A DNA stretch of 64,000 bases from Branchiostoma lanceolatum. Taxonomy: Eukaryota > Chordata > Leptocardii > Amphioxiformes > Branchiostomatidae. The position numbers were made by a program, and so were the translations under genes. The notes beneath the pieces were generated by a model, which worked only from the letters and a program-made list of their open reading frames with translations, searched no databases and was not told the origin of the DNA. Below, piece by piece: positions 1 through 47,047 of this stretch. How positions within the stretch are numbered: the stretch's first letter is position 1; every line of letters starts with the position of its first letter. The stretch covers positions 14,119,242-14,183,241 of the forward strand of contig NC_089730.1 in NCBI RefSeq assembly GCF_035083965.1, given 5' to 3'.

Positions 1-1239
1 CGCAACACCTGCCGCCCAGAATAGCTACGGACCATCGGTGAGTAAAATCGGCGTTCTTTGCCATCTCCTTTTTTTCTGACGGTGTTTAAGAGAAAAGTGT
101 TGTGTTACTAATACTATTAGGCCATACTGATGTGATCATATGAATGACATCGACTGACTGTGCCCCCAAAACTGGTGCGAGCGTGCGAAAAAAATATAGG
201 GACAGAACAGCTGTGTGGTCAGGAAGGTTAAAAGATGACCGAACACAATGAACATTATATAACAAACAATACATTCTTAATTTTTGTTGTTTTACATCTG
301 GTACTTTGAGTTCATTTTCTGATATGTTTTGTTAAAATCTACAGCATATGTTTACTCATTTTGCTCATTTTGCAGCTTCTTTGTACGATTTACAGTATGG
401 CCGCAAACTTTTGTTTTGGAAACGTACGAAAATTGGTGCGGATGTCATCCGTATGATTAAGTAAATTTTTGTTAAGTGATAGCCCGCAGTCAGACTTACT
501 CAGCATTGTTTTTGAGGGTGCAGATACTGAGCTGGACGCTTTCAGTATTCTATAGCCGGCATATAGATTTACAGGTCCTGCCTTGTCAAACACTATAAAC
601 CGATAAATCACAGCACAACGGGACTTTTATAACCATGATAAATCCTTACAAAATAGGGAAAGAATCTGTAGGGGAAATTTTGTAACCAGCAATTTGAAGC
701 ACGAAATATTTTAACTAGTTACGACGGCCTGGACATGTTACGCTACCACCGTTACGTCTACTTTGTAAAAGACCCCCTGACACTGACAGAATTTATTTCT
801 GAAGGATCGCCGAAGTGATGTCTAACTTAAGTGAATACTGTGCCCATATCTGTGCGCTTTATGTCAGCTGCAATGTGGAGGTTGTAGTTTGTTGGGTGTC
901 TGTTTCTGTATACTTAGCGGAGTGTATATTTCTTATCGTCAATGCTATGTGTACTTTCCCCCATTAGTATACTCCAAAATGCGACTTAAGCTTGTCCAAG
1001 GGTTGTCGAGCACCTGACTTAAACTACCGTGTAAGAGTTTAAAAACCAGAACAAGAGAAAAGTGATCTTTCTAAGGTTCACACGTTTGTGTCAGTAAAAA
1101 ATGGAACAGTAACGCTTTGATTACGTAACTTGTTGTTACCAACTGAATTAGGCCTAGTACATGTTTTAAAAGCATACTTTTTACAACAGATTGCAACCGA
1201 CTCTAAAACTACAGTCAGAGAACAAGACAAAAACAGAAG
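1..1239. other. 5' flank of the peroxidase-glycyl radical enzyme gene
   Basis: No coding exon is recognised. A GTGAGT donor-like site lies near position 38, so the first bases could be a non-coding first exon of the following gene. Bases 1-90 resemble 7769-7850, upstream of the nuclease gene. The remainder is AT-rich and unremarkable. Confidence 0.35.
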
Positions 1240-4200
1240 ATGCCGCCAGCTAAAAAGAGGCGAATAGACGGGGCTTCATCCACAAGAGCACACATGGATG
1301 TACGTTCGAATGAGGAAAGGCCGATAGGAAAGGTGCAGCCTGGTCTGCTGGCTACGAAACCAAAGCACGGGGTTTTTGTCACAGTCACCTTCAAAAAAGC
1401 AACCTTGCCTCCGAAGGACAGATTCCTGAGCCTGATCAAGAAGCTATCAGAGTATGGAAAGGAAAAGGGGAACCGGACCTGGTCCGTTGTGGCTTTTGAT
1501 CCAGAGCTATGGGAGAAGTGGCAGGATAGCAGCATATCTCTAGCTCTTGAAGCACGAGGAAAACGACCCTATCTTCTGCCGGCCTCGACCTCCACCAAGT
1601 TTGCAAACACCGGTGAAAGTATCTTCTTCTTTTTGAAGTCTAACTCCAAGGAATGCATCAAAGGCTTGACAGAAATGGTCCAAGATGACTTGAGGCAGTT
1701 ACAAAAATACTGCACCTTTGAAGTTGTGAACTCGGAGACCGGTAACAATCGAGTGTTTGGCGGCCTTTTTGCCGACGGACTGGCCAACCCCACGGACGTC
1801 GAGAACATCGACGAATTCATCATCACCACGGAAGGAGACAAGGGCAAACCCGGTGGATCCTACATGCTGACGCAGAAGTTCGTCTTCAACTGGACCGTCC
1901 TGGACACGAATCATCACCTCCTGGAAAACGTCATCGGCAGGACTGTGAAGGACGACATCCTAATCGACTTCGACCCAAGGAGGCACATCAAGTGTGCAAA
2001 AATCCTAGACCCGTCCGGAAGGCATCCGAGAATTCTCCGACAGGCTATGCCATACGGATCAAACGACACCGGAGTGGGTCGAGAGGAGGGTCTCTTCTAC
2101 ATCTCCTGCGCAAACACATGCGAGACCTTTCTGAAGATTCTCAACCAAATGGTTGCCAAAGACGACAAGCTACTGACTGCTATTGATGCAGTACAGGGAG
2201 GCTTCTGGTACGTTCCGAGTGCAGAGGAGCTCGGCCTGACGCCCATCCCTGTCCGGGATCAACTCCAACTGATGCCACAGTGGGACGTCAAGAGCGACAA
2301 CGGCTACATGTTCTACAACAGCCGAGAGTACCTGTACCGGATGACTACAGGCGGCTATAAGGACCCCCAGGACACACCCAGCAGCCGTGTTCTCAAACTC
2401 ATGGGTCTGGTCATGACCGACTGGCAACGCAGCTGGTTCGAGAAACAAGACGAACCTCACATCCCCGACCTTACAACGTTCTTAACCGAGGACGATAAAA
2501 AACTCCTACTGGACTACAAAAACGCGATCCCGATAAGGAAAGGCCTCGCCACATTTTATACCCTGAAGCACATCGTCAGCACAGATCCCTACTCCAAGCA
2601 GTTCGACCTGTACCGTATCTACCCGGATGAACTGATCGTGGGAGTGATGCCAAGCTTCTCTCTCGGTCTCGGAAAGAGAGTGATGCCGTACCTGACGGAT
2701 GATGAGCAGATTCCAGCCTATCAGATGGGCGTGACGGAGGCTGCAGCTATTGGACACGTCGTGCCGGATTATCAAGTCATTCTGGAGGTAGGTCTGCAGG
2801 CTCTTGTCGATAAGATGGACAGTGAAGCCACCAAACAAAAGGAAGAGAACAAACAGATGTTCTTTCTTTCGGCGAAGAAGTCGTTGATGGGTGCGCAGGC
2901 TTATATAGAAAGCTATGCCCAACTGGCCAAGAGCATGTCTTGTGAAGAAACGTTCACTGCGGAGCAGAAGGCAAATCTTCGACAGATCAGTGATCGCATG
3001 CATAAGCTGGTGAAGAACAAGCCTGACACGTTTCTGGAGGCCACACAGCTTGTCTTCGCGATGCATTGCTGTCTACACATCGTCGGTGAGCCGATCTCCA
3101 TCGGGCGACTCGACCAACTGTTAGGGTTGTCTTACTCTGAGGACGGAATGACCATGGAGGAGAGGCAGGAGGTCATCGACTGTTTCTGGATCAAGGTGGG
3201 CGAGAAAACTCTGCTAAACCCGCATGCCGCCCAGGACAAGATCTTCCCCGGAATGTGTGCCGTTCCCTATACAAGCAGCGGCAACTTTCCTCAGGGCGGC
3301 TGCATGAACCAGTGGGGACAACAACTCACCATCGGCGGCTACCTGCCGAATGACGACCGGAAGCCAATGACTGCCTGCAACGAAGTCACCCTGATGTGCC
3401 TCCGAGCTGCCCGGCGTCTTCCTCTGAACGCCCCGTGCCTGACGTTACGACTTCACGATGGCATCCCCCAAGAAGTGTTGGAGGAAACCGCCAAAGCCCT
3501 GCTGAGTGGAGGAGCCCACCCGGTCCTGCTGCATGACGACCGGCTGGTTCCAGCCCTACAGGATTCTGGACGGAGGGGAATCTCCGTTCCCCTGAGAGAT
3601 GCCAGGAACTACGCCTGTGATGGGTGTTTCGAGCCCGTGTTTGTTGGCGCCTCGGAGTTCGCGTTCGCCACCTTCTCGCTCCTCGACGCCGTCGAAATGG
3701 CACTGAACGAAGGAACGCTCCACTCACAGGCTGGTCCACATTACCTGCGGGGTACCAAAAAGTCCTTTCCCTCGCCAAATGCTACTCAGATCAAAAATTT
3801 TGCGGAATTCCAAGAGATCTTCCTGCAACATCTTCGTCTCCAGATTCCTTTGCTGGTGTCCTTCCTTGTCGGCGGTTACGGTAACATATGGAAGGTGTGC
3901 CCCAGCCCTCTCCTGTCTGTCATGATGAGGAGATGTATAGAGGCCGGCCGGGATCATTCAAACGGCGGTACGGAGTACCATGATCTAGGCTTCATGTTTG
4001 TGGGCGCTGCCAATACAATCGACTCGCTCTACGCCATCAAGAAGCTCGTGTACGACCCGCTCACCGCGCTGACAACTCTGCCGGATCTCCTCACTTGTCT
4101 GAAGTGTGACTGGGGCCACGACATGAAGGAGTACGTCTTCGACACACGGGGAGGATCAGCCAGACAGGAAGCAAAAGCGTCCACTTTCAAGCATCTTCGA

Positions 4201-5243
4201 GATGTAGCCGTGTCCTTACCAAAGTTCGGCCACAGTGAAAACGAAGAATTAAAGGAGCTGGCAACCTGGATGTTTGAAAACGTCTTGAAGATACTTCGGG
4301 AGACCTTTGAAAATGCTCCACCTGGAGTGAAGGAGACCTTTGAGCGACTGGAGCAGGAGTATTCTCTCCCGGATAGGCCTTTCGGCTTCGTGGCGCTGCC
4401 AGGAATAGGCACGTTTGAGGCGTACGTCGGGTACGGACTGAACAGCGCTGCGTCGGCAGACGGACGGCGGAGCGGCCAGCCGATAGCGTCGGACCTGAGC
4501 CCGGCACCTGTACCCCAGGACCTGCCTGCAAACCCGGACAGCTGTGACATCTACAAGTAAGTGGAGAACAAATTAAACTTTCTCTCACTTCACAACAAGC
4601 TACGATATGGTATTCTTTCCATCAATCTTGACGCTTTGTTTCTTCAATGCAGCCTGTCCAGAAACTTATGTCGCCTCTGTCAATTGTTTGTTCTTTTCAG
4701 AGCGCTGAAATGCTGGGACCTTCGCGTCATCAACCATGGCCTGTCGTGCGGTTCTGAGGTGGATCTGATGATTCGTGAAGACTTCCCATTGGACAAGCTG
4801 ACCGAGTTCCTGCGGTGCTACGCGAACCTGGACGGCCCCATCGGCTCCAACGTCATCACAGGTAGAACAGTGTATATAATGTTTTAGAATATAAAGGCAA
4901 ATGATCAAATTTTCTGTAACTCAACAAATACCTGGTGATACAGTTATACCGACAACAAATACCACAGTTCCTTTGAGAAAATAGAATTGAGGCATATACT
5001 TTTGCATAGTTAATGAAATTGTTCAGACGTCAAATTATTGATTGTCTGCTACATGAGATGACATGCCCACGCTCTGCTCTTCCAGTGACATGTGCAAATC
5101 CAGAGACGTTGGCAAAGGCGTCCCAGATCACCGACGCCTACGAGCTACTGCGCGTGCGCCAGGGCGGTTGGTCGGAATTCTTCATCGCTCTGTTTCCGGT
5201 ACACAAGGAGCAACTGCGCCGCCGCATGTACGTCCACCAGTGA
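1240..5243 (+). CDS. Dye-decolorizing peroxidase / glycyl radical enzyme fusion
   Basis: Three exons (1240-4556, 4701-4861, 5086-5243) join in phase to a 1211-residue protein. Residues about 45-332 match a YfeX-like (class B) DyP haem peroxidase. Seen are the distal Asp in FADG (D179), the proximal His in RRHIK (H249), the distal Arg in RILRQAMPYG (R267) and the C-terminal GGFWYVPS motif. Residues about 410-1211 match a PFL-like glycyl radical enzyme: PDELIVG near 462, thiyl Cys and base in GCFEP (C796, E798), SADGRRSGQP near 1072, and a C-terminal radical loop VRQGGWSEFF (radical Gly G1187). Exons 2 and 3 encode only the glycyl radical domain. GCxEP is typical of the dehydratase/C-N lyase branch (CutC, glycerol dehydratase), whereas PFL has adjacent cysteines, so pyruvate formate-lyase activity is unlikely. 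The substrate is unknown. Glycyl radical enzymes need a radical SAM activase, and none is in the window. The N-terminus PAKKRRID resembles a nuclear localisation signal. Confidence 0.9.
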
Positions 5244-8412
<3,169 letters not shown>

Positions 8413-11400
8413 ATGCCGGGTGCAGGAGCCTTGCTTGGGGCCGGCGCGGCGGGCTTCACAGTTGCTGCCTTGTTGCTTGGCAACGTCAACCTGCCTAGCA
8501 ACATCATGTCGTACGTTATGAAAGGTAAGGTGTGTTTCCTTTAATAGTTGTAATTTGCTTTTTATTAGAATTTGATTGCACAGTTTGTGGAAGAAATCTG
8601 CAAATTATCAGAAAACAATATAACGTTGGGTAACATAAATTCGTGGGGTACTTAAATTCGGGATTTTTCGAAAACGGGGTATTTAGGTATATGTGCTAGA
8701 TGCAACATCAGTAATACCGCTAGAAATGCAAACTTGACAGACTAACGCATTCAGAATACTGTCTGAAAAGCTTCGATAACCATGCAATAGAAGTTGGCGA
8801 CGTCAAAAACTCTCCGTCCCTTATCGACAGAGTCTGGGGGCTTCGTGGGAGACTCACACTGCACGGTTGTTCGCTGGTTTATAAGACAAATGTCACATCT
8901 CCTGCCTGCTAAACACAATTATTTACAAGACAACTTATTACAATCTCTTTTGCTAACCTGCAACTGGATTCTAAGTGTGATCAATCATCAAAACTCCTCT
9001 TTGTTGCTACAACCTACGGCACGTGTATTTTCCCGCCGCCATATTGTTACCCAGAATCATGTCGTCAAGCAGACGACAAAAGGTTTGTGAGGAACACTTT
9101 TTTGTCTAAATGTTGCTTGTGATAGTGGACTGAAGACGATATTTTCCTCAAAGTTTGCTCCTAACACAACAAGGAACACATGGACAAAGTAGTATAACCA
9201 TTGCATCCAGCTAACTTGCCATGAATAATGTACACGTTGCCATGACGGTGGGGATCGACTTTGAGTGACGTTCTACCGACTCAACAAACGGGATGTTAGC
9301 AAAGGCCTGATGTGTGCGGTGCGGCCGTTTTTTCGTGTATTTTTTTTACTTGGACACGTCTATATCCACAGCACTCTCCTCAAGCCAAGGATGGAACGAG
9401 TAGCTGCTGTATAAAATGTGATTAGCGGTAAGATATTCAAGACGAGTCTTCTCTCCCGAATTAATGTGCACCCCTGTCCGACAGCACCGTCATTGTGTGT
9501 GCGGCGGACGGTAGTTTCAAGTTGAAATATTATGGTGTCAGCACGACTAGAGACAAAATCTACCATACATATGATTAGTGCAAAGATAGTTCATGATACT
9601 GACAGAATAATAGAAAAAAAGGATGGTTTATTGTTCTGCTAGATTGATTTCAGTTAACCATTATCGGAAAAATCCCGAATTTATGTTACCCAACGTTACC
9701 TCGTTCTCGTGCAACTCTCGTACATTCTCGTAGGGCTGTGCCTGAGTACAGTCCAATATGGAAAGGGTCCAGACGCTTGTTTTATTGTCACATCGGTACA
9801 CAATCATTGTGTTCACTTACGTCAACTGTTCATGTGAAAATGAATACTTTGCCATTCTCAGAGACTGTACATCCTCATCTATCTACATCAAATTAAGAAA
9901 AAAACATAGCCATTATACTGTAATTTTTTTGTTTAAACACCAGTTTCATTGTTTATTAATCAAAAGCTCACAGCTTCAGTTCTTTTGACACTTTCAATTA
10001 TCTAATTTTTCCCTGTTCTATTTCAACATGACGAAGATGCCACAGAGGATATTTGTAATCAGAGCCACAGTAAGTAAACTTTGCAGTTTTGTTGACTTGA
10101 AACACCGTTCATCAGTGACATTACTGCTTGAACATTTTGTGATCTCTATCAAGTCATATGACATGATTTTGTGTAACAATGGTACGAAATCAGTCTCGTC
10201 TAGCGTCGAGCCTTCTCGTTGAAGGTGAAAACTTCCGTCAGGTCACCCCGTAAAACATCATGTTCATCACTTACAGTACTGAATCTTTTGGTCAACCTAT
10301 GGCCATTGTATCACCAGCACTTAAAGGTAGAGAATTCTATTTTTGTTTGAACGACAAGGTGTTTCTTTTGATTCTCGTGTTGCGGGTATCATAGAAGTAG
10401 GAGACAAAAGTTTCAATATGTAGTATGATACTTTGTAGTCAGCCACAGTAAAAATGTTGACGATGTTGTGGTAGTGTTTGAACCTTTTTTATACATACAC
10501 TAATCAACACCTTAACATTGCTTCTTAAGACGATACCGCTCCTCTGGAGAAATGCTTGGAACGACATTCCAACTTGCAAAGTGACTGTGACCACTTCTTC
10601 GTGGGTGATGCCTGGCCATCTAGCGGTTATATCAAGAACAACAACGGCGCCACCGTACGAATCTGCCACACCCGCGCCGGGGATGAAAAGCACCTGTTCG
10701 CCACGACCTACAATGTTCACTACCGCATCCCTGAGTACACCGCCTCCGCCATCACACGTGACCCGAAGCTAGAAGAACAAGAGAGGCCGTCATCAAGCAT
10801 GTGGGACAGAGTCCAGCTCGGTAATTTTCACAACTTGCAAACCTTTTAAGTTATCGTCATTCATGGCCTTCTCACTGAATAGAGTTGTCTGCGTTGGTGT
10901 TTCTTCATCTATTTCTTCTTTCTTTGTGCTTTTCTTACTTCCTTTCTTTTCGTACTTCTTTTAATCTACCGCATCCCTGAATACATGGGGTCCTCCGTCA
11001 CATGCAAACCGGAGGTGGAAAAACATGACAGGCCAAGTAGTGATCTGCTGAAATGTGTATGTTTTATTTATTTATTTATTTCTGTATTCTTTTACTAGGG
11101 TAGCTCCCTCAGTGGCTTCGCACTGATTTTCAGGGAGGCCCTAGATACACACATACAAACATACAAACAATACACTGATATATACATAACATTTGTGCGT
11201 CATAACAAAATCATATCCATACTCATAGTCCATATCGTGCCAGGTCGTAAGGATTGAAGGTCAGAGGTCACACAATTCTTTTGCACAGAGTTTTGAAAGA
11301 TTGTGTGGATGAAGTGTTTTTGACGTATACCAGTAGTCTCGGTAATTATCAGGAAAAATAATGCAAACCTAATATATCAACAAAACTAGTAACCGTTTTC

Positions 11401-12419
11401 ATTCCTATACAGTCCACGTAACCGGTTTTGGTCGTCTTCTTTTCTCTCTTTCTTTCTTTCTATTCTAAATTCCTTTATAGTAATTTTCCTCAGATTCCCA
11501 TTTTCACCACAATGTCATGTATTTTACAGGGCTGTGCGGAATGGAAATGCATGATGAAATTTCTCAACAGTGCAAAGTCGACACCAAGAGTTGGGGCATC
11601 TCCCGAGCGTCGGACATCCCGGATTGCTCCCTCCGCAACCCCAGCTTTGGAGAACTGAAGGGGAGCTTCTGTCCCGACTGCCAGGCAATGGATGGCGACT
11701 ACTCCGGCTGTGGCGAAATCTACAACCGGGGCCACATCAACCCTAACGCCATCAACGACAAAGATGCAGACGTGCAGGACGGAACCTTCAGTATGATCAA
11801 CGTGGCTCCGCAGGTCAGAGACAGTGGCAGATGGTCCACTTTTTCTGATTTACGCTTTCGGACACTGTCACTAAAACATCACTTGTATTGTTATAGTAAC
11901 AGGAGTCCCGTTAAATATTCATTTCTACAGGACGACGACTTTAACCAGTGCGTGTGGCAGCCGTACGAATGCGCAGTCGGCAGGAAGGCAGACGAAGTCT
12001 ACAAGAACGCGGAGAAAGTCGGTTCCAACAGCAAAACCCTCTACGTCATCACGGGCACAAAGCTGGGCCAACAAACCACGTGGATGAAAGGACGAGTGGC
12101 CATTCCTGGGTACTTCTGGAAGGCGCTGTGCTACCCTGGGGACGAGAGCAAAGGGCTTCGTCCCTTCGGGGTCGGGTTCTACGGCCCAAACATCGACTGT
12201 TCCACCATGACGTCACTTCCGCTGGACAAGTTCGAAGCCTGGCTGTACGACGGAGCGGATGAGCATCTCTTTCCCGGGTCAGTGTGTGCCGGACCGGTAG
12301 ATAACTGGGAAGGTTTGGATGCCCACGTAGCTGAGATAGCTCACGACTGTAGGAATGAGCACATCCAGGAGACTTGTGAGAGCTCGTGGCGTGAAGAACG
12401 CTGCGGTACCAGTGGCTGA
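8413..12419 (+). CDS. DNA/RNA non-specific endonuclease (NUC superfamily), secreted or anchored
   Basis: Four exons (8413-8524, 10530-10820, 11530-11813, 11931-12419) join in phase to 391 residues. The N-terminus MPGAGALLGAGAAGF begins a hydrophobic segment of about 24 residues, a signal peptide or membrane anchor. The catalytic core has YNRGHINP, with general-base His H203, and SMINVAPQ, with metal-binding Asn N225. This is the beta-beta-alpha-metal nuclease fold of the EndoG/Serratia nuclease/ENDOD1 group. The usual DRGH is NRGH here. Many cysteines in exons 2-4 suggest a disulfide-rich extracellular or luminal enzyme. Its role (digestion, DNA clearance or antimicrobial) is inference. The start is chosen because it opens directly into the hydrophobic segment and its phase fits exon 2. 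Intron 1 holds an inverted-repeat element and intron 2 a decayed copy of part of exon 2. Confidence 0.88.
8631..9698. mobile_element. Non-autonomous DNA element with terminal inverted repeats, about 1.07 kb
   Basis: The left end starts TAACGTTGGGTAACATAAAT. The right end, reverse-complemented, starts with the same 20 bases and continues with a matching CGGGATTTTTC block, which on the left is displaced by a short insertion. No transposase reading frame is visible inside. It sits in intron 1 of the nuclease gene. The superfamily is not identified. Confidence 0.75.
10967..11055 (+). pseudogene. Decayed duplicate of the 3' part of nuclease exon 2
   Basis: Translated in one frame it reads YRIPEYMGSSVT, followed by a stretch ending DRPSSDLL. 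This parallels YRIPEYTASAIT and ERPSSSMW encoded at 10714-10800. No AG lies directly before the homologous start, so it is probably a relic inside intron 2 and not a used exon. Confidence 0.6.
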
Positions 12420-41726: not shown

Positions 41727-44700
41727 ATGGCTACACACAAAGGGGGGTCCAAAACATTGCAGAAGGATGGCTGTAGTCAAGCTCTAGTGCTACTTCACCG
41801 TAGTGTGAGTGATCTAAGGTCTCTCGTCCAGAATCACCCAGTGTTCAAAATGTTGAGGGTCTGTGAGAAACTTCGCGAGGTCGACGCCAAGGCCAGGAGA
41901 CTCGGACTAGTGCGGACGGAGACGGACTACCTCCGTGCCCTGCTGGACGCCATGTCAAACATGGACAGGTCGGTGGAGGTAGAGATACTCAAAAGTTTGG
42001 GAGACGTGAACTTGGAGAAGGGACAGGTTGACAGGGCTATGTTGTTGTACAGGGCTGCACTGCTCCGGTGTAAGGACGCATATGTGGGCGAAAGTCTCGC
42101 AAATCGCTACCGGTACGCACAAAAACTAGTGGGGAGGGGAGGAACAATCCCTGACGATTATGAACCCCAGACCAACCCCGAGAAAATGTCTTCGCCTGCC
42201 AAGGTGGCGGAGAAGTTTCTACACCTGGATCGTAGGTTAACTTCTGGTTATGACAAAGACTCTGTGCTGATTGAATATACCAATTTGATGATAGAAGGGA
42301 TCATTAACGAGGACAATTTGTTAGAGACGGAAGCAATCAAGAGTCTCGGTGACCTGTTCCTGAAAAGAGGAACAGAAACTAGAGACGCGCCATGTTTGAC
42401 CAAGGCCACTGCTCTGTACAACACTGCGCTGGCGCGGTGTGAGGGGGTACAGGGCACAGTGGCACTCATTCACCGCCTATTTTACACGGCAAGAATCAGA
42501 CAATACATGAAAACTACTAGAAATAAGGTAAGTTATATTTTTTTCCTCACAGAATGTGGCAATTTTAGGGAAAACAGTGCTACAGTAATCGGTGACAACA
42601 CTTGATGATTAAACGGTAATTTACCCCAAACGTGATAACCATTTCTCGTGTGTGGTTTTATCTTTCAACTAGATTTGGTGCCTTGTCATATTCTTTTAAT
42701 AACCCCCTACAACAATCGATTCCATGTGCAGTATACTTCATAACTGTGTCTGTGGAGGACTGAGGCCGGGTAAACCACATTCACATTCGATTGCATTTTT
42801 TTGTTGAAGCATACGTATACTTCTATAATACTACTTACCAACTAAGATTAATTTTCGTGCTAAAGATATTCTAATTCGTGTAATTTAAGGGTCCTAAGCT
42901 GAGACAACGACAGCAAAAGGGGCACCTGTCACGGGACTTCCCAGTGACGTCATCACACACGGAAGTCATCGGTGACGCAAAGGGTCACAAGTTCATGTAA
43001 GCACAGGATTGTTTATTTTGTTTTATGGTGGTGACAGTGCACCTCAACGTTAATGTTTAGAGAAGTTATGAATTGGAGACATTGCATGTTCCCTTTTCTT
43101 ACTTGTTATGCCGTGAACTCTATCATGTCATAGCCCATTTACAACTCACGGGCTCCAGAAATATAGCTTTTCACTCTGCATTAATTGATGAATCAAATAA
43201 AGCAGATTAATTTTCAACTTTGTTTTGATACTAAACCCATCTTTTCCTCTCGTAGGTCACCGAGTGAGTACATCTCAAGCCTGATAACCAAACACGTTCC
43301 AGACTACAGGTTTGTACACTTATTGCTTTTCTCACACTGTTATTCGAAGGTTATATATGGCCGCTAGTCCTGCCGTCTAGATGTACGAACGGTATTTTAG
43401 TCTTGAGTTAGCTGTACTAACCGTTCAACACCTCACACTGTAGGTCATACGAGAAGTACCTGACTACAGGGGACCACGCACTGAATGATGGGAACCTGGA
43501 CTTAGCGGAACGGAAGTTCGCGACCGCTCTGAAACTCATTCATGGTACGTTACCTCACGATGAAAGTTTACTTCATATAACCTCCAAAGAAAGAGAAACT
43601 CAATAGGGAAGACCTGTGGATACAATAAGGCTTAACACAGCCTGGTAGTTTTATTATACTGCTATCATGTTATATGACATATATGGGATAGAAACATAAT
43701 AACTATGATCGATAATTAAATTCAGTGTTTTTCTCATAAACCGTTGTTTAAAGATGTCTGAAAATAGTTAAAACGCATTGATAATTCAATTTGCCTGATA
43801 GCTAACGATTATTATGTTTTTGCATACAGATCCCAACAAACCCGACCGACGTAAAGAGGCTGAATGTCTGTGCAGACTGGGTGACGTCTACGTCCGACGA
43901 GGTAAAAGAACAAAAGGAGGTAGAAACTTCACACAGGCAGCAGCTCTGTATAACGCAGCCATGGCCAGAACAGACAAAGATAAACAGAGTATGACGAACA
44001 GACTTCAGGAAATAGAGCAATGGTTTCTACGATGCACAGCAAATGTGGACAGCAAGTCCATTCCGTCTGATAGGACCATACGTCATCAGAAGCGATTAAA
44101 GGATATCCGTGCTCGTGCAAAATCACAGCTAGAAGCCATTGATCAGCAACATGATCCGTACAAATACGACGAGGATGATCCAGTCATGATAACAGTCGAC
44201 GCTGAGCGAGCTGAAGCTGTCAAGGCTTTATTCAAGACAATCGCTAAAAATAGACAAAGTTTTATCCAGGATCTTGTTGATGAATGTATTGTCGAACTCG
44301 GTCCTCCTCCGTGTAAGTACGCTTTCATCGGGCTGGGCTCACAGGCAACAGAACTGGTCACGCCCTACTCTGATCTGGAGTTCGCCATTCTGATTGAGGA
44401 CGGGAAGGACAATGATGACACGCGGCGGTACTTCATCAACCTCACGCACTACCTACACTTGAAAGTCATCAACCTCGGAGAGACCATCCTCCCAGCCATG
44501 GCCATCTCCTCACTCAACGATTTTCAATCAGAAGATCCAGAGAAAGACTGGTTCTTTGACTCGGTCACGCCACGTGGATTTGCCTTCGACGGCTTCATGC
44601 CGTGGGCAAGTAAGACTCCATTTGGTAGAGACAAGACTAAGAGCAAACCTCGGCTTAGCCTTATCCAGACCCCTAACGAAATGGCAAAGTTTCAGCAGCT

Positions 44701-47047
44701 AGACATTTCTGTGTTAGAAGGGTACCACCTGTCAGACATCCTCAGACGGTTTGTCTTCTTAGCAGGGGAGAAAGAATTGGTGAACGAGTATGGGGGAGAA
44801 CTTTCAGAAATCATCACAAGTGATCTATCTTCACATTTCCAGTCCCACCTGTCTGCATTACAACTCCTGTATGACAACAAGGAAAATTTTGCCAACCTTG
44901 AACTCACTGGAGAACTACTGAATGTCAAGAAAGACATCTATCGTTTTCCAGGCATAGCAATCGAGATACTAGCATTGTGCTGTAAAGTTACACATTCTTC
45001 CGCGTGGCATGTGATAGATAGATTGAAGGAAATGGAAAAGATCGGAGAGGAGAATGCTACTCACCTAACGGTGCTTACCAGTATCTCGGCAGAGCTCCGG
45101 CTGAGAACATACATGGCTAACGGAGGACAAAAAGACAGTTTGTCCCCACTTGTCCAAATGGAAAATAAATCAGAAACACGTGAGGTGCCTGACTCTGTCC
45201 TGAGGTCAGTATTCTATATTCCGAATACCAAGGTACTTTTCAGATACTACTGCAGGGCTATCCCTTTGAAACAGTGTATCCCAGGCATGGTCAAAGAGGG
45301 GTTACAGTCGACAGGGCTAATCAAAATGGCAATTTATGATGTCTCTAATGAATGCTTGGGCCGAATAGCAAAGAATCTATTCTTATCACAAAGGTCCATA
45401 CGCCATTTGAAAGCAGCATTGGACGATGCTGGTAGCGACGCCATCAAACGTTCGGAAATTTTTCGGGAATTGGGGAAGTACTGGGAGTCTGAGATTGATT
45501 TTACTAAGGCAAAACTCAATTTCGAACAGTCTCTTATGCTACGTCGAGGTATTTATGGAGACAACACGGCAGAACCGGGCATTGCGGAGTCACTTCACAA
45601 CTTGGGAATAATTTGGAATGACCTTGGCGATCGGAAGAAAGCAATTGATTACTTCGAACGGTCACTAGCGATGACGAAAACAATTTATGGAGACAATACG
45701 GCACATCCGCTCATTGCAGGGGCACTTGGCAACCTGGGATCATGTTGGGGTAAACTAGGCGATGAGACGAAGGCAATTACCTACTTTGAACAGTCACTAG
45801 CGATGATGAAAACTATCTATGGAGACAACACGGCACATCCGCACATTGCGCAGTTACTTCACCACTTGGGGGGGTCATGGTTTAACCTCGGCGATGCGAA
45901 GAAAGCAATCAGCTACTGTGAGCAGTCGCTAACAATGAGGAAAACTGTTTATGGAGACAACACGGCCCACCCGGACATTACGCAGTCACTTCACAACTTA
46001 GGATTCTCTTTGAGTAAACTCGGCGATCAGAAGAAAGCAATCAGCTACTTGGAACAGTCACTAACGATGGGGAAAACTATCTATGGGGAGAAAACGCCAC
46101 ACCACAATATTGCTCAATCACTTAACCACCTGGGAATATCTTGGAGTAGACTTGGCGACCAAAAGAAAGCAATTAGCTACTTAGAAAAGTCACTAACGAT
46201 GAGGAAAACTATCTACGGAGACAACACGGCGCATCCGCACATTGCTGATTCACTTAACAACCTGGGGTTATCTTGGAGTTACCTAGGCGATGAGAAGAAA
46301 GCAATCAGCTGCTACGAACAGTCACTAACGATGATGACAACTATCCATGGAGACAACATGGCACATCCGCACATTGCCGGGACACTTGGCAACCTGGGGA
46401 TATCTTGTGGTAAACTCGGCGATAGGAAGAAAGCAGTTAGTTACTTTGAACAGTCACTAACAATGTTGAAGACTATCCATGGACACAACACGGCTCATCC
46501 AGACATTGCTCAGTTACTTAATAATCTGGGATCGTCATGGGGTGAACTTGGCGATCAGAAGAAAGCAATTAGCTACTTTGAACAGTCACACATAATGGCG
46601 AAAACTCTATATGGAAACAAGACGGCACATCCATCCATTGCTCAGTCGCTTCGCAACCTGGGATCATATTGGGGTGCGCTCGGTGATCGGAAGAAGGCAA
46701 TTAGCTACTTGGAACAGTCATTAACGATAGAGAAAATTATTTACGGAGACAACACAGCACATCCGCACCTTGCCGCGTCACTTAACAACCTGGGTACATC
46801 TTGGGCTATGCTCGGCGATCAGAAGAAAGCAATCAGCTACTTTGAACAGTCACTATCGATGAAGAAAATTATTTACGGAGACAACACGGCACATCCGGAC
46901 ATTGCTCAGTCACTTCGCAACCTGGCATCATCTTGGAGTGAACTCGGCGATGAGTCGAAGGCAATTAGCTACTTGGAACAGTCACTAAGGATGCAAAAGA
47001 CTCTCTATGGGGTGACAGCACCCAGGGCTGAGTGCCGAGTTAATTAA
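41727..47047 (+). CDS. TPR / nucleotidyltransferase-fold / TPR-repeat protein
   Basis: Five exons (41727-42527, 42890-42996, 43256-43309, 43444-43544, 43830-47047) give 1426 residues in phase. The start is the ATG in an ACCATGG context; an in-frame upstream ATG at 41658 is less likely. The N-terminal third has scattered TPR-like hairpins (for example LGDVNLEKGQVDRAMLLYRAAL). Residues about 520-540 read GLGSQATELVTPYSDLEFAI. The GS (524-525) and D-x-E (536, 538) fit the pol-beta-type nucleotidyltransferase signature seen in GlnD/DUF294 proteins. From about 890 to the end are eleven 42-residue TPR_12/kinesin-light-chain-like repeats (consensus GDNTAHPHIAQSLNNLG and LGDQKKAISYFEQSL), then a truncated unit. 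No signal or TM segment is seen, so it is probably cytosolic. The function is unknown; nucleotide transfer and a defence role are inference. Confidence 0.85.
45540..47010 (+). repeat. 126-bp tandem coding repeat (42-residue TPR units)
   Basis: Eleven units in frame inside the last exon of the TPR-NTase gene. They are recognised by recurring GGAGACAAC(A/C)CGGCACATCC and GAAGAAAGCAATTAGCTACT blocks every 126 bases. Nucleotide similarity between units is high. Confidence 0.9.

Follow-up and report, generated by a model that had tools for sequence, protein, structure and literature searches.

A stretch of 64,000 nucleotides from the Branchiostoma lanceolatum genome (contig NC_089730.1, positions 14,119,242–14,183,241 of the forward strand; hereafter, the window) carries at positions 1240–5243, on the (+) strand, one spliced gene with a product of 1211 amino acids. 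Judged from its sequence, the N-terminal half of this product is a YfeX/TyrA-type DyP peroxidase, and the C-terminal half is an eliminase-type glycyl radical enzyme (GRE). In textbooks, GREs are anaerobic enzymes that require an activase of the radical S-adenosylmethionine (SAM) type. Comparison with its relatives points to a bacterial-type DyP-GRE fusion acquired by the animal lineage as the best explanation of the gene, and it suggests, with chances that we put at nearly even, that the DyP peroxidase does the job of the activase and starts the GRE radical. This second proposal is made because a peroxidase is present in every testable locus of the family, no activase was found in the bacterial loci or over cut-off in the host genomes searched, and the radical residues are kept. 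A peroxidase-bearing family without a detectable activase, found in bacteria and in an animal, makes the peroxide start of a radical scaffold testable.

The GRE Family and Its Peroxidase Partner

Relatives of the animal protein were found at 12 bacterial loci (L001–L012), which are rare and spread across four phyla. A search of plasmid proteins yielded an Asticcacaulis fusion (L001; 89% query coverage), annotated merely as a Dyp-type peroxidase, and a Hymenobacter GRE split in two, with a DyP gene after it (L002). The Hymenobacter genome holds two GRE copies, both of them fragmented (L002 and G175:C3:9862-11533, by coordinates the plasmid of L002). A scan of 84,980 species genomes, carried out with an alignment of three GREs and two short peptide patterns and thus giving a lower bound, returned at least 26 loci: 10 close relatives (38–42% identity, L003–L012) in Myxococcota, Bacteroidota, Verrucomicrobiota, and Pseudomonadota, and 16 canonical GREs (24–31%, L013–L028). 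The bacterial genera named here we take to be aerobic. Even among kin the family is rare: matches at the family level (>800 bits), always counting the centre genome, numbered one among 147 genomes in the order of host G007, two among 120 in the genus of G004, one among 282 in the phylum of G001, and one among 349 in the family of G003; further matches at 221–244 bits (five in the G001 phylum search and one in the G003 family search), with 24–29% identity, were classed as canonical.

The tree was built from 24 GRE domains, corresponding to the window, L001, L003–L012, and 12 canonical rows, with L002 (its GRE being in two pieces) and the canonical L019, L022, and L024–L027 omitted. In this tree, the family forms a single clade apart from the canonical GREs (support 100/100), within which the window protein and the four fusions from bacteria cluster together (97/98), with the separate-gene type as their sister (95/98), as far as the long branch of the window protein, whose exact position is unsure, allows. 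The sequence-only reading had treated the fusion as peculiar to the animal; this part has to be given up, as the gene belongs to a bacterial family, which rules out a unique animal invention, and a fungal and bacterial fusion had been published in 2016 (PMC5041501). A virus origin was also considered and rejected: no relative appeared in two IMG/VR scans, and a phage collection gave five records, all of them below 27% identity.

A DyP was present in all 11 family loci that could be tested, L010 ending within its GRE and standing outside this count. Four of them are DyP-GRE fusions (L001, L003, L007, L012), and in the other seven, the DyP gene comes directly after the GRE (L002, L004, L005, L006, L008, L009, L011), so the earlier expectation that the two domains belong together was confirmed in bacteria. 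In contrast, BLAST searches with three DyPs found none in the 16 canonical GRE loci, and BLAST searches with four activases found a GRE activase in 15 of these 16, the sixteenth (L019) being a fragment of 4.9 kb, whereas the 12 family loci gave none. The 16 canonical loci come from clostridia and their kin, and taxonomy could confound this contrast. For this, canonical-level GREs were looked at in the G001 phylum and in the G003 family, each of which holds a relative of the window protein: five out of six were accompanied by an activase and none by a DyP, in stretches of 3.0–4.6 kb. In addition, plasmid canonical GREs of Persicobacter, Flammeovirga, and Moraxella adjoin an annotated activase, with no annotated DyP in the plasmid stretches examined. 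Taxonomic confounding is less likely because activase-bearing canonical GREs without a DyP exist both in groups that hold the family and on plasmids.

The partner is not always the same protein. Fused DyPs resemble TyrA/YfeX (window and L003 compared) and separate DyPs resemble EfeB/deferrochelatase (L008 compared, all seven separate DyPs being homologous). Because two different DyP classes pair with one GRE family, it is apparently the peroxidase activity, and not a single hitch-hiking gene, that has been retained.

The search for activases was extended to the 10 genomes hosting L003–L012, those of L001 and L002 being left out, and to five genomes with canonical GREs as controls. The TIGR02494 activase was over cut-off in none of the 10 family hosts and in all five controls; for PFLA (TIGR02493), the figures were 0/10 and 2/5, and for NrdG (TIGR02491), 0/10 and 4/5.

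Catalytic Residues and a Possible Start of the Radical

The GRE half occupies residues 335–1211 (2242–5240, (+) strand) and was aligned with 11 and with 10 relatives. A PFL-like domain (PF02901) was matched at residues 494–1021 (3.6e-94, 317.1 bits against a cut-off of 24.3, Pfam search on exon 1 alone). When the window protein was aligned with L001 and L003–L012 (L002 left out), 11 residues were identical in 12 out of 12 GREs, in window numbering: H506 (2755–2757); H609, H613, and E617 of an H-x3-H-x3-E array (3064–3090); C796 and E798 of the C-x-E thiyl motif in DGCFEP (3625–3633); and R1184, G1186, G1187, W1188, and E1190 in the glycyl loop RVRQGGWSEF (5151–5180, with G1187 at 5166–5168), the family motif of which is R-x-G-G-W-[ST]-E. 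H506 and H609 align with the His of GHV and of FIHA in glycerol dehydratase 1r8w, and the C-x-E aligns with its GCVEP; all of these we take to be substrate-handling residues. The HxxxHxxxE triad was absent from the 13 canonical rows compared, 1r8w sharing its first His, and could bind a metal close to the active site.

This family-specific triad opens the alternative that the GRE fold abandoned the glycyl radical and works otherwise, for example through a metal at H609, H613, and E617. The lack of any activase found would fit, as would the behaviour of the Gly_radical model PF01228, which gave no match in the C-terminus of the window protein and was over cut-off in only two of the nine bacterial members scanned. 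However, the alignment of 12 members, drawn from four bacterial phyla and one animal, shows no change in the radical Gly, the Cys, the C-x-E, or the loop Arg, and we regard such a loss of the radical as very improbable.

None of the known GRE subfamilies (PFL2-3, CutC, HypD, sulfopropanediol dehydratase, and others) reached its NCBIfam cut-off when the exon 1 protein, that is, the product minus its last 106 residues, was scanned; the best was TIGR01774, with 199.1 bits against 678.2. A structural model of the Ensifer GRE (pLDDT 84.7, pTM 0.89) matched choline lyase, propanediol dehydratase, and glycerol dehydratase among the top 44 PDB rows, with TM scores of 0.71–0.80 and root-mean-square deviations of 5–7 Å over about 900 alignment columns.

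Regarding the peroxidase half, Dyp_perox_C (PF20628) was matched at residues 177–329 (1768–2226, (+) strand; 4e-20, 72.7 bits against a cut-off of 20, Pfam), and the best PDB match was 2hag TyrA (E 1.1e-13). PF04261 gave no match in the Pfam scan of the window protein, and TIGR01413 covered residues 33–331 with 90.5 bits, below its cut-off of 100.5. From the YfeX/TyrA-like PDB matches, we presume DyP type B. D179 (1774–1776), H249 (1984–1986), and R267 (2038–2040) all lie within the stretch aligned to solved DyP chains, and both H249 and R267 were found in the five fusions, including the window; D179, H249, and R267 are presumably the distal Asp, the proximal haem ligand, and the distal Arg, respectively. 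H249, D179, R267, C796, and G1187 (in RVRQGGWSEFF) stand at the positions given by the sequence-only reading. That homologues would keep these active-site residues was right for H249 and R267 in the five fusions and for C796 and G1187 in the 12 aligned GREs, and wrong for D179, which the animal protein retains and for which the four bacterial fusions (L001, L003, L007, L012) have Glu.

Haem peroxidases generate protein and thiyl radicals. If the DyP is the activator of the GRE, peroxide would oxidise its haem, and a one-electron oxidation would be relayed within the protein as far as the glycyl loop, or would reach the Cys directly, after which the barrel would run an eliminase reaction (dehydratase or lyase) converting a small diol or amino alcohol into an aldehyde. 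We infer both the haem-to-Gly/Cys step and the substrate. As O2 destroys the glycyl radical, a short-lived or even single-use enzyme would be expected, turned on by a peroxide burst, and in bacteria, it would act alongside the lipid- and nucleic-acid-attacking enzymes of defence-type operons. A single-use enzyme triggered by peroxide also fits the peroxide induction of a DyP-PFL fusion gene in the fungus Chaetomium (PMC5041501).

Several points weigh against a peroxidase start. The replacement of the distal Asp by Glu in the bacterial fusions is one of them, and another is that in the model of exon 1, the DyP half came out poorly (pLDDT < 50 for residues 165–360). The structure prediction that had been called for was good for the GRE part; with the DyP half poorly modelled, the domain geometry of the fusion was dropped. 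Weak TIGR02494 matches appeared in 6 of the 10 family hosts (best 41 bits against 174) and weak PFLA matches in four (best 57 against 232), and a Myxococcales host gave an NrdG match of 102 bits, just below the cut-off of 126.1; the named control genomes show sub-threshold matches of this sort as well, TIGR02494 being matched in 13 of 14 and over cut-off in three. In addition, several hosts are metagenome-assembled genomes whose completeness is not given, and the activase evidence covers the bacterial relatives and not the animal genome. The radical, the haem, and the reaction are all proposed from sequence. The strongest published counterpoint is a putative PFL activase in Chaetomium, a carrier of the fusion, for which the text gives only its identity to other "putative" activases (PMC5041501).

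Both the weak host matches and this fungal activase would fit a different role, that of a shield, in which peroxide is cleared by the DyP and the glycyl radical can thereby persist under aerobic conditions, the radical-SAM activase having been missed or being borrowed; the induction of the fungal fusion gene by peroxides would fit too (PMC5041501). However, a DyP removes peroxide and not O2, and it is O2 that cleaves the radical (PMC12288474). The absence of activases from the 12 loci by BLAST and, over cut-off, from the 10 hosts also argues against a shield, as do the plasmid canonical GREs of Persicobacter, Flammeovirga, and Moraxella, which have their activase at hand and no annotated DyP; we consider it unlikely. 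The sequence-only reading had proposed, as the role of the peroxidase, protection of the radical or a coupling of two radical chemistries; either may hold, but the missing activase in the bacterial hosts points instead to a peroxidase that starts the radical. Another explanation, which we hold to be quite improbable, is a two-step pathway in which GRE and DyP act successively on one substrate, with channelling in the fusion and a radical formed by some unknown route. It would account for genes that are fused or adjacent and for operon partners that are other enzymes (PLD, glyoxalase-fold, HAD-like, and GMC proteins), but it leaves the missing activase unexplained.

Gene Model and Animal Host

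The coding sequence (1240–4556, 4701–4861, and 5086–5243, (+) strand) runs through 1211 codons to a stop codon, with no internal stop. Exon 1 (1240–4556; codons 1–1105 plus two bases) encodes the whole DyP half and the greater part of the GRE half, exon 2 (4701–4861) a C-terminal part of the GRE, and exon 3 (5086–5243) the glycyl-radical loop and the stop codon; intron 1 (4557–4700) and intron 2 (4862–5085) are both GT-AG and in frame. Read unspliced, the protein would end shortly past exon 1 and miss the radical glycine. Splicing adds 106 residues with 40–54% identity, over 70–101 residues, to the C-termini of the 11 relatives compared, and because these residues match the C-termini of relatives, the two introns are well supported by sequence comparison. 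One spliced gene with junctions at 4556/4701 and 4861/5086 was what the sequence-only reading had described; the possibility of two separate genes was ruled out, as a single uninterrupted open frame (1207–4560, spanning exon 1) contains both the DyP and the PFL-like domain. The N-terminus of the animal protein, MPPAKKRRIDG (1240–1272), is basic and resembles a nuclear localisation signal.

The host of the contig is an animal, since the contig also encodes a Toll-like receptor (LRR+TIR), a trypsin, an ATP_bind_1 GTPase, and an amino-acid transporter whose closest matches are of the SLC7 type. An assembly contaminant, a chimaera, or a pseudogene might be suspected from a bacterial-type gene with a long exon 1 and exons richer in GC than their flanks. 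However, excision of the two in-frame GT-AG introns restores the C-terminus of the family, the frame is intact across 1211 codons, animal genes share the contig, and the GRE half is 36–41% identical to the aligned bacterial relatives, leaving this alternative with a negligible chance; the contaminant origin that had been raised as an objection was rejected on the grounds of the introns, the family C-terminus, and the animal genes.

Elsewhere in the window, a long (GT)n microsatellite lies downstream of the fusion gene (6535–6655), an Endonuclease_NS gene is found about 6 kb downstream (11,484–12,419), the same nuclease family being present near the DyP and GRE of L004 and L006, probably by chance, and a long exon (43,802–47,047) encodes a DUF294-like nucleotidyltransferase domain followed by many TPRs.

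Genomic Neighbours and Known Systems

In the bacterial loci, a PLD-like gene lies downstream in 7 of 12 (L002, L003, L004, L005, L006, L007, L009). The gene order in L003 and L007 is phosphoesterase, DyP-GRE fusion, PLD, a gene X, and MBL, and in L005, it is GRE, DyP, PLD, X, and MBL. X has HEVTH with a downstream E in the four copies compared (L003, L005, L007, and L049), one record being annotated as "peptidase M4", and the MBL protein keeps HxHxDH in the same four loci and matched the PADLOC models LmuA, RTasMBL, and Avs1a in the three scanned. Other neighbours differ between the loci: L004 has CHAT and Endonuclease_NS; L002 has a STAND-like ATPase (AAA_16 over cut-off, nSTAND1 below) together with two trypsin-like genes; L006 has a subtilase and a fusion of glyoxalase and Endonuclease_NS; and L001 and L012 have an FGE-like gene beside one of the DUF2278 type.

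L049 lies on a conjugative plasmid of Bradyrhizobium quebecense. Its PLD-X-MBL block is 74, 64, and 72% identical, respectively, to that of L007, with the X-MBL pair at 7650–11,133. The block follows a GMC oxidoreductase gene, which stands where L007 has the DyP-GRE fusion, in the region 4085–7615; in the same region, between the GMC and PLD genes at about 6001–6143, a frame-broken remnant of the last ~48 codons of the GRE was found. The GMC gene appears to have replaced the fusion on this plasmid.

Gene X was present on 38 plasmid records, and MBL directly follows it in the nine examined besides L049 (L051–L059). Near the X-MBL pair, we found a CBASS cyclase with a patatin (L055), SIR2 proteins (L056), ThiF genes (L054, L057, L058), and an AAA ATPase with a Mov34/MPN gene (L052, L053); a defence-type gene was present in seven of these nine plasmids and none was seen near the pair in L051 or L059. 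This couple of a HExxH metalloprotease-like protein and an MBL protein may be an undescribed nuclease-protease pair.

Neighbours of this kind are the company of bacterial conflict systems (PMC7159879, PMC8195603, and PMC12799240), and the words "peroxidase" and "glycyl" are absent from the main texts of the first two. The operon context would suggest radical chemistry as an effector of bacterial immunity and the animal as its taker, although defence-type company does not prove a defence role. A haem peroxidase, fused or as a partner, and peroxide might replace SAM and an iron-sulphur cluster, allowing the GRE scaffold to work in aerobes; in bacteria, the result would be a swappable effector triggered by an oxidative burst, whose product would be a toxic aldehyde derived from lipid head groups that PLD had released, the GMC oxidoreductase in its place on one plasmid making the same kind of product, and the animal would have taken over an immune effector. 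We consider this combined reading rather doubtful. Against the best explanation, with its place in defence-type operons, it counts that the metalloprotease-MBL pair occurs in only 3 of the 12 family loci and PLD in 7, and that no PADLOC model matched the GRE or the two DyPs scanned.

The closest described system is the DyP-PFL fusion of Chaetomium fungi, reported in 2016, which rules out an undescribed architecture. Like the window protein, DyP B-PFL of Chaetomium cochliodes has an N-terminal DyP type B and a C-terminal PFL-like glycyl-radical domain, is of bacterial origin by transfer, and has an unknown function; its gene was induced 3.3-fold by H2O2 and 18.5-fold by peroxyacetic acid, the strongest response among the nine genes tested (PMC5041501). 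The fit of the window protein to this architecture was judged by domain order. Unlike the amphioxus gene, the fusion is fungal and shows no introns in Table 2 of that paper, the authors take the putative radical-SAM activase as its activator, and their section on the fusion deals neither with DyPs encoded by genes of their own nor with the lack of an activase or the operon setting (PMC5041501). The legend of their DyP tree names Deuterostomia and Mollusca, so animal DyPs, perhaps the window gene itself, may be included. In the open-access literature, as judged by titles and the starts of abstracts, no paper was found on the regular pairing of this GRE with a DyP, on the lack of an activase, or on the operon setting, nor on such a gene in Branchiostoma, amphioxus, or metazoa at large. 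An encyclopedia chapter cited by the Chaetomium paper is said to place the fusion in other prokaryotes and eukaryotes. A review of haem peroxidases has DyP type B in Schistosoma, with no mention of PFL or glycyl radicals in the part available (PMC4420034).

Antiviral protease-MBL nuclease pairs share with the loci described here an MBL nuclease-like protein that accompanies a protease and moves between systems (PMC12799240). They differ in that here, the partner is HExxH protease-like, the MBL gene is downstream, and DyP, GRE, and PLD are adjacent in three loci; "metalloprotease" and "metallopeptidase" are absent from the main text of PMC12799240.

With the glycyl radical eliminases (glycerol dehydratase, CutC, propanediol dehydratase), the family shares the fold, the C-x-E, the two aligned His of 1r8w, and the glycyl loop. 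In contrast to canonical GREs, to which it is about 18–28% identical, it has no activase found, a DyP partner, a separate clade (100/100), and RxGGW[ST]E in the glycyl loop instead of the R[VI][AT]GY[ST]A of the canonical rows. Class I ribonucleotide reductase uses diiron, not haem, and has no need for a glycyl loop. It offers a parallel to the proposed start by a peroxidase, since its Cys radical is started in the presence of air by an oxygen-charged metal protein and not by SAM (PMC12288474).

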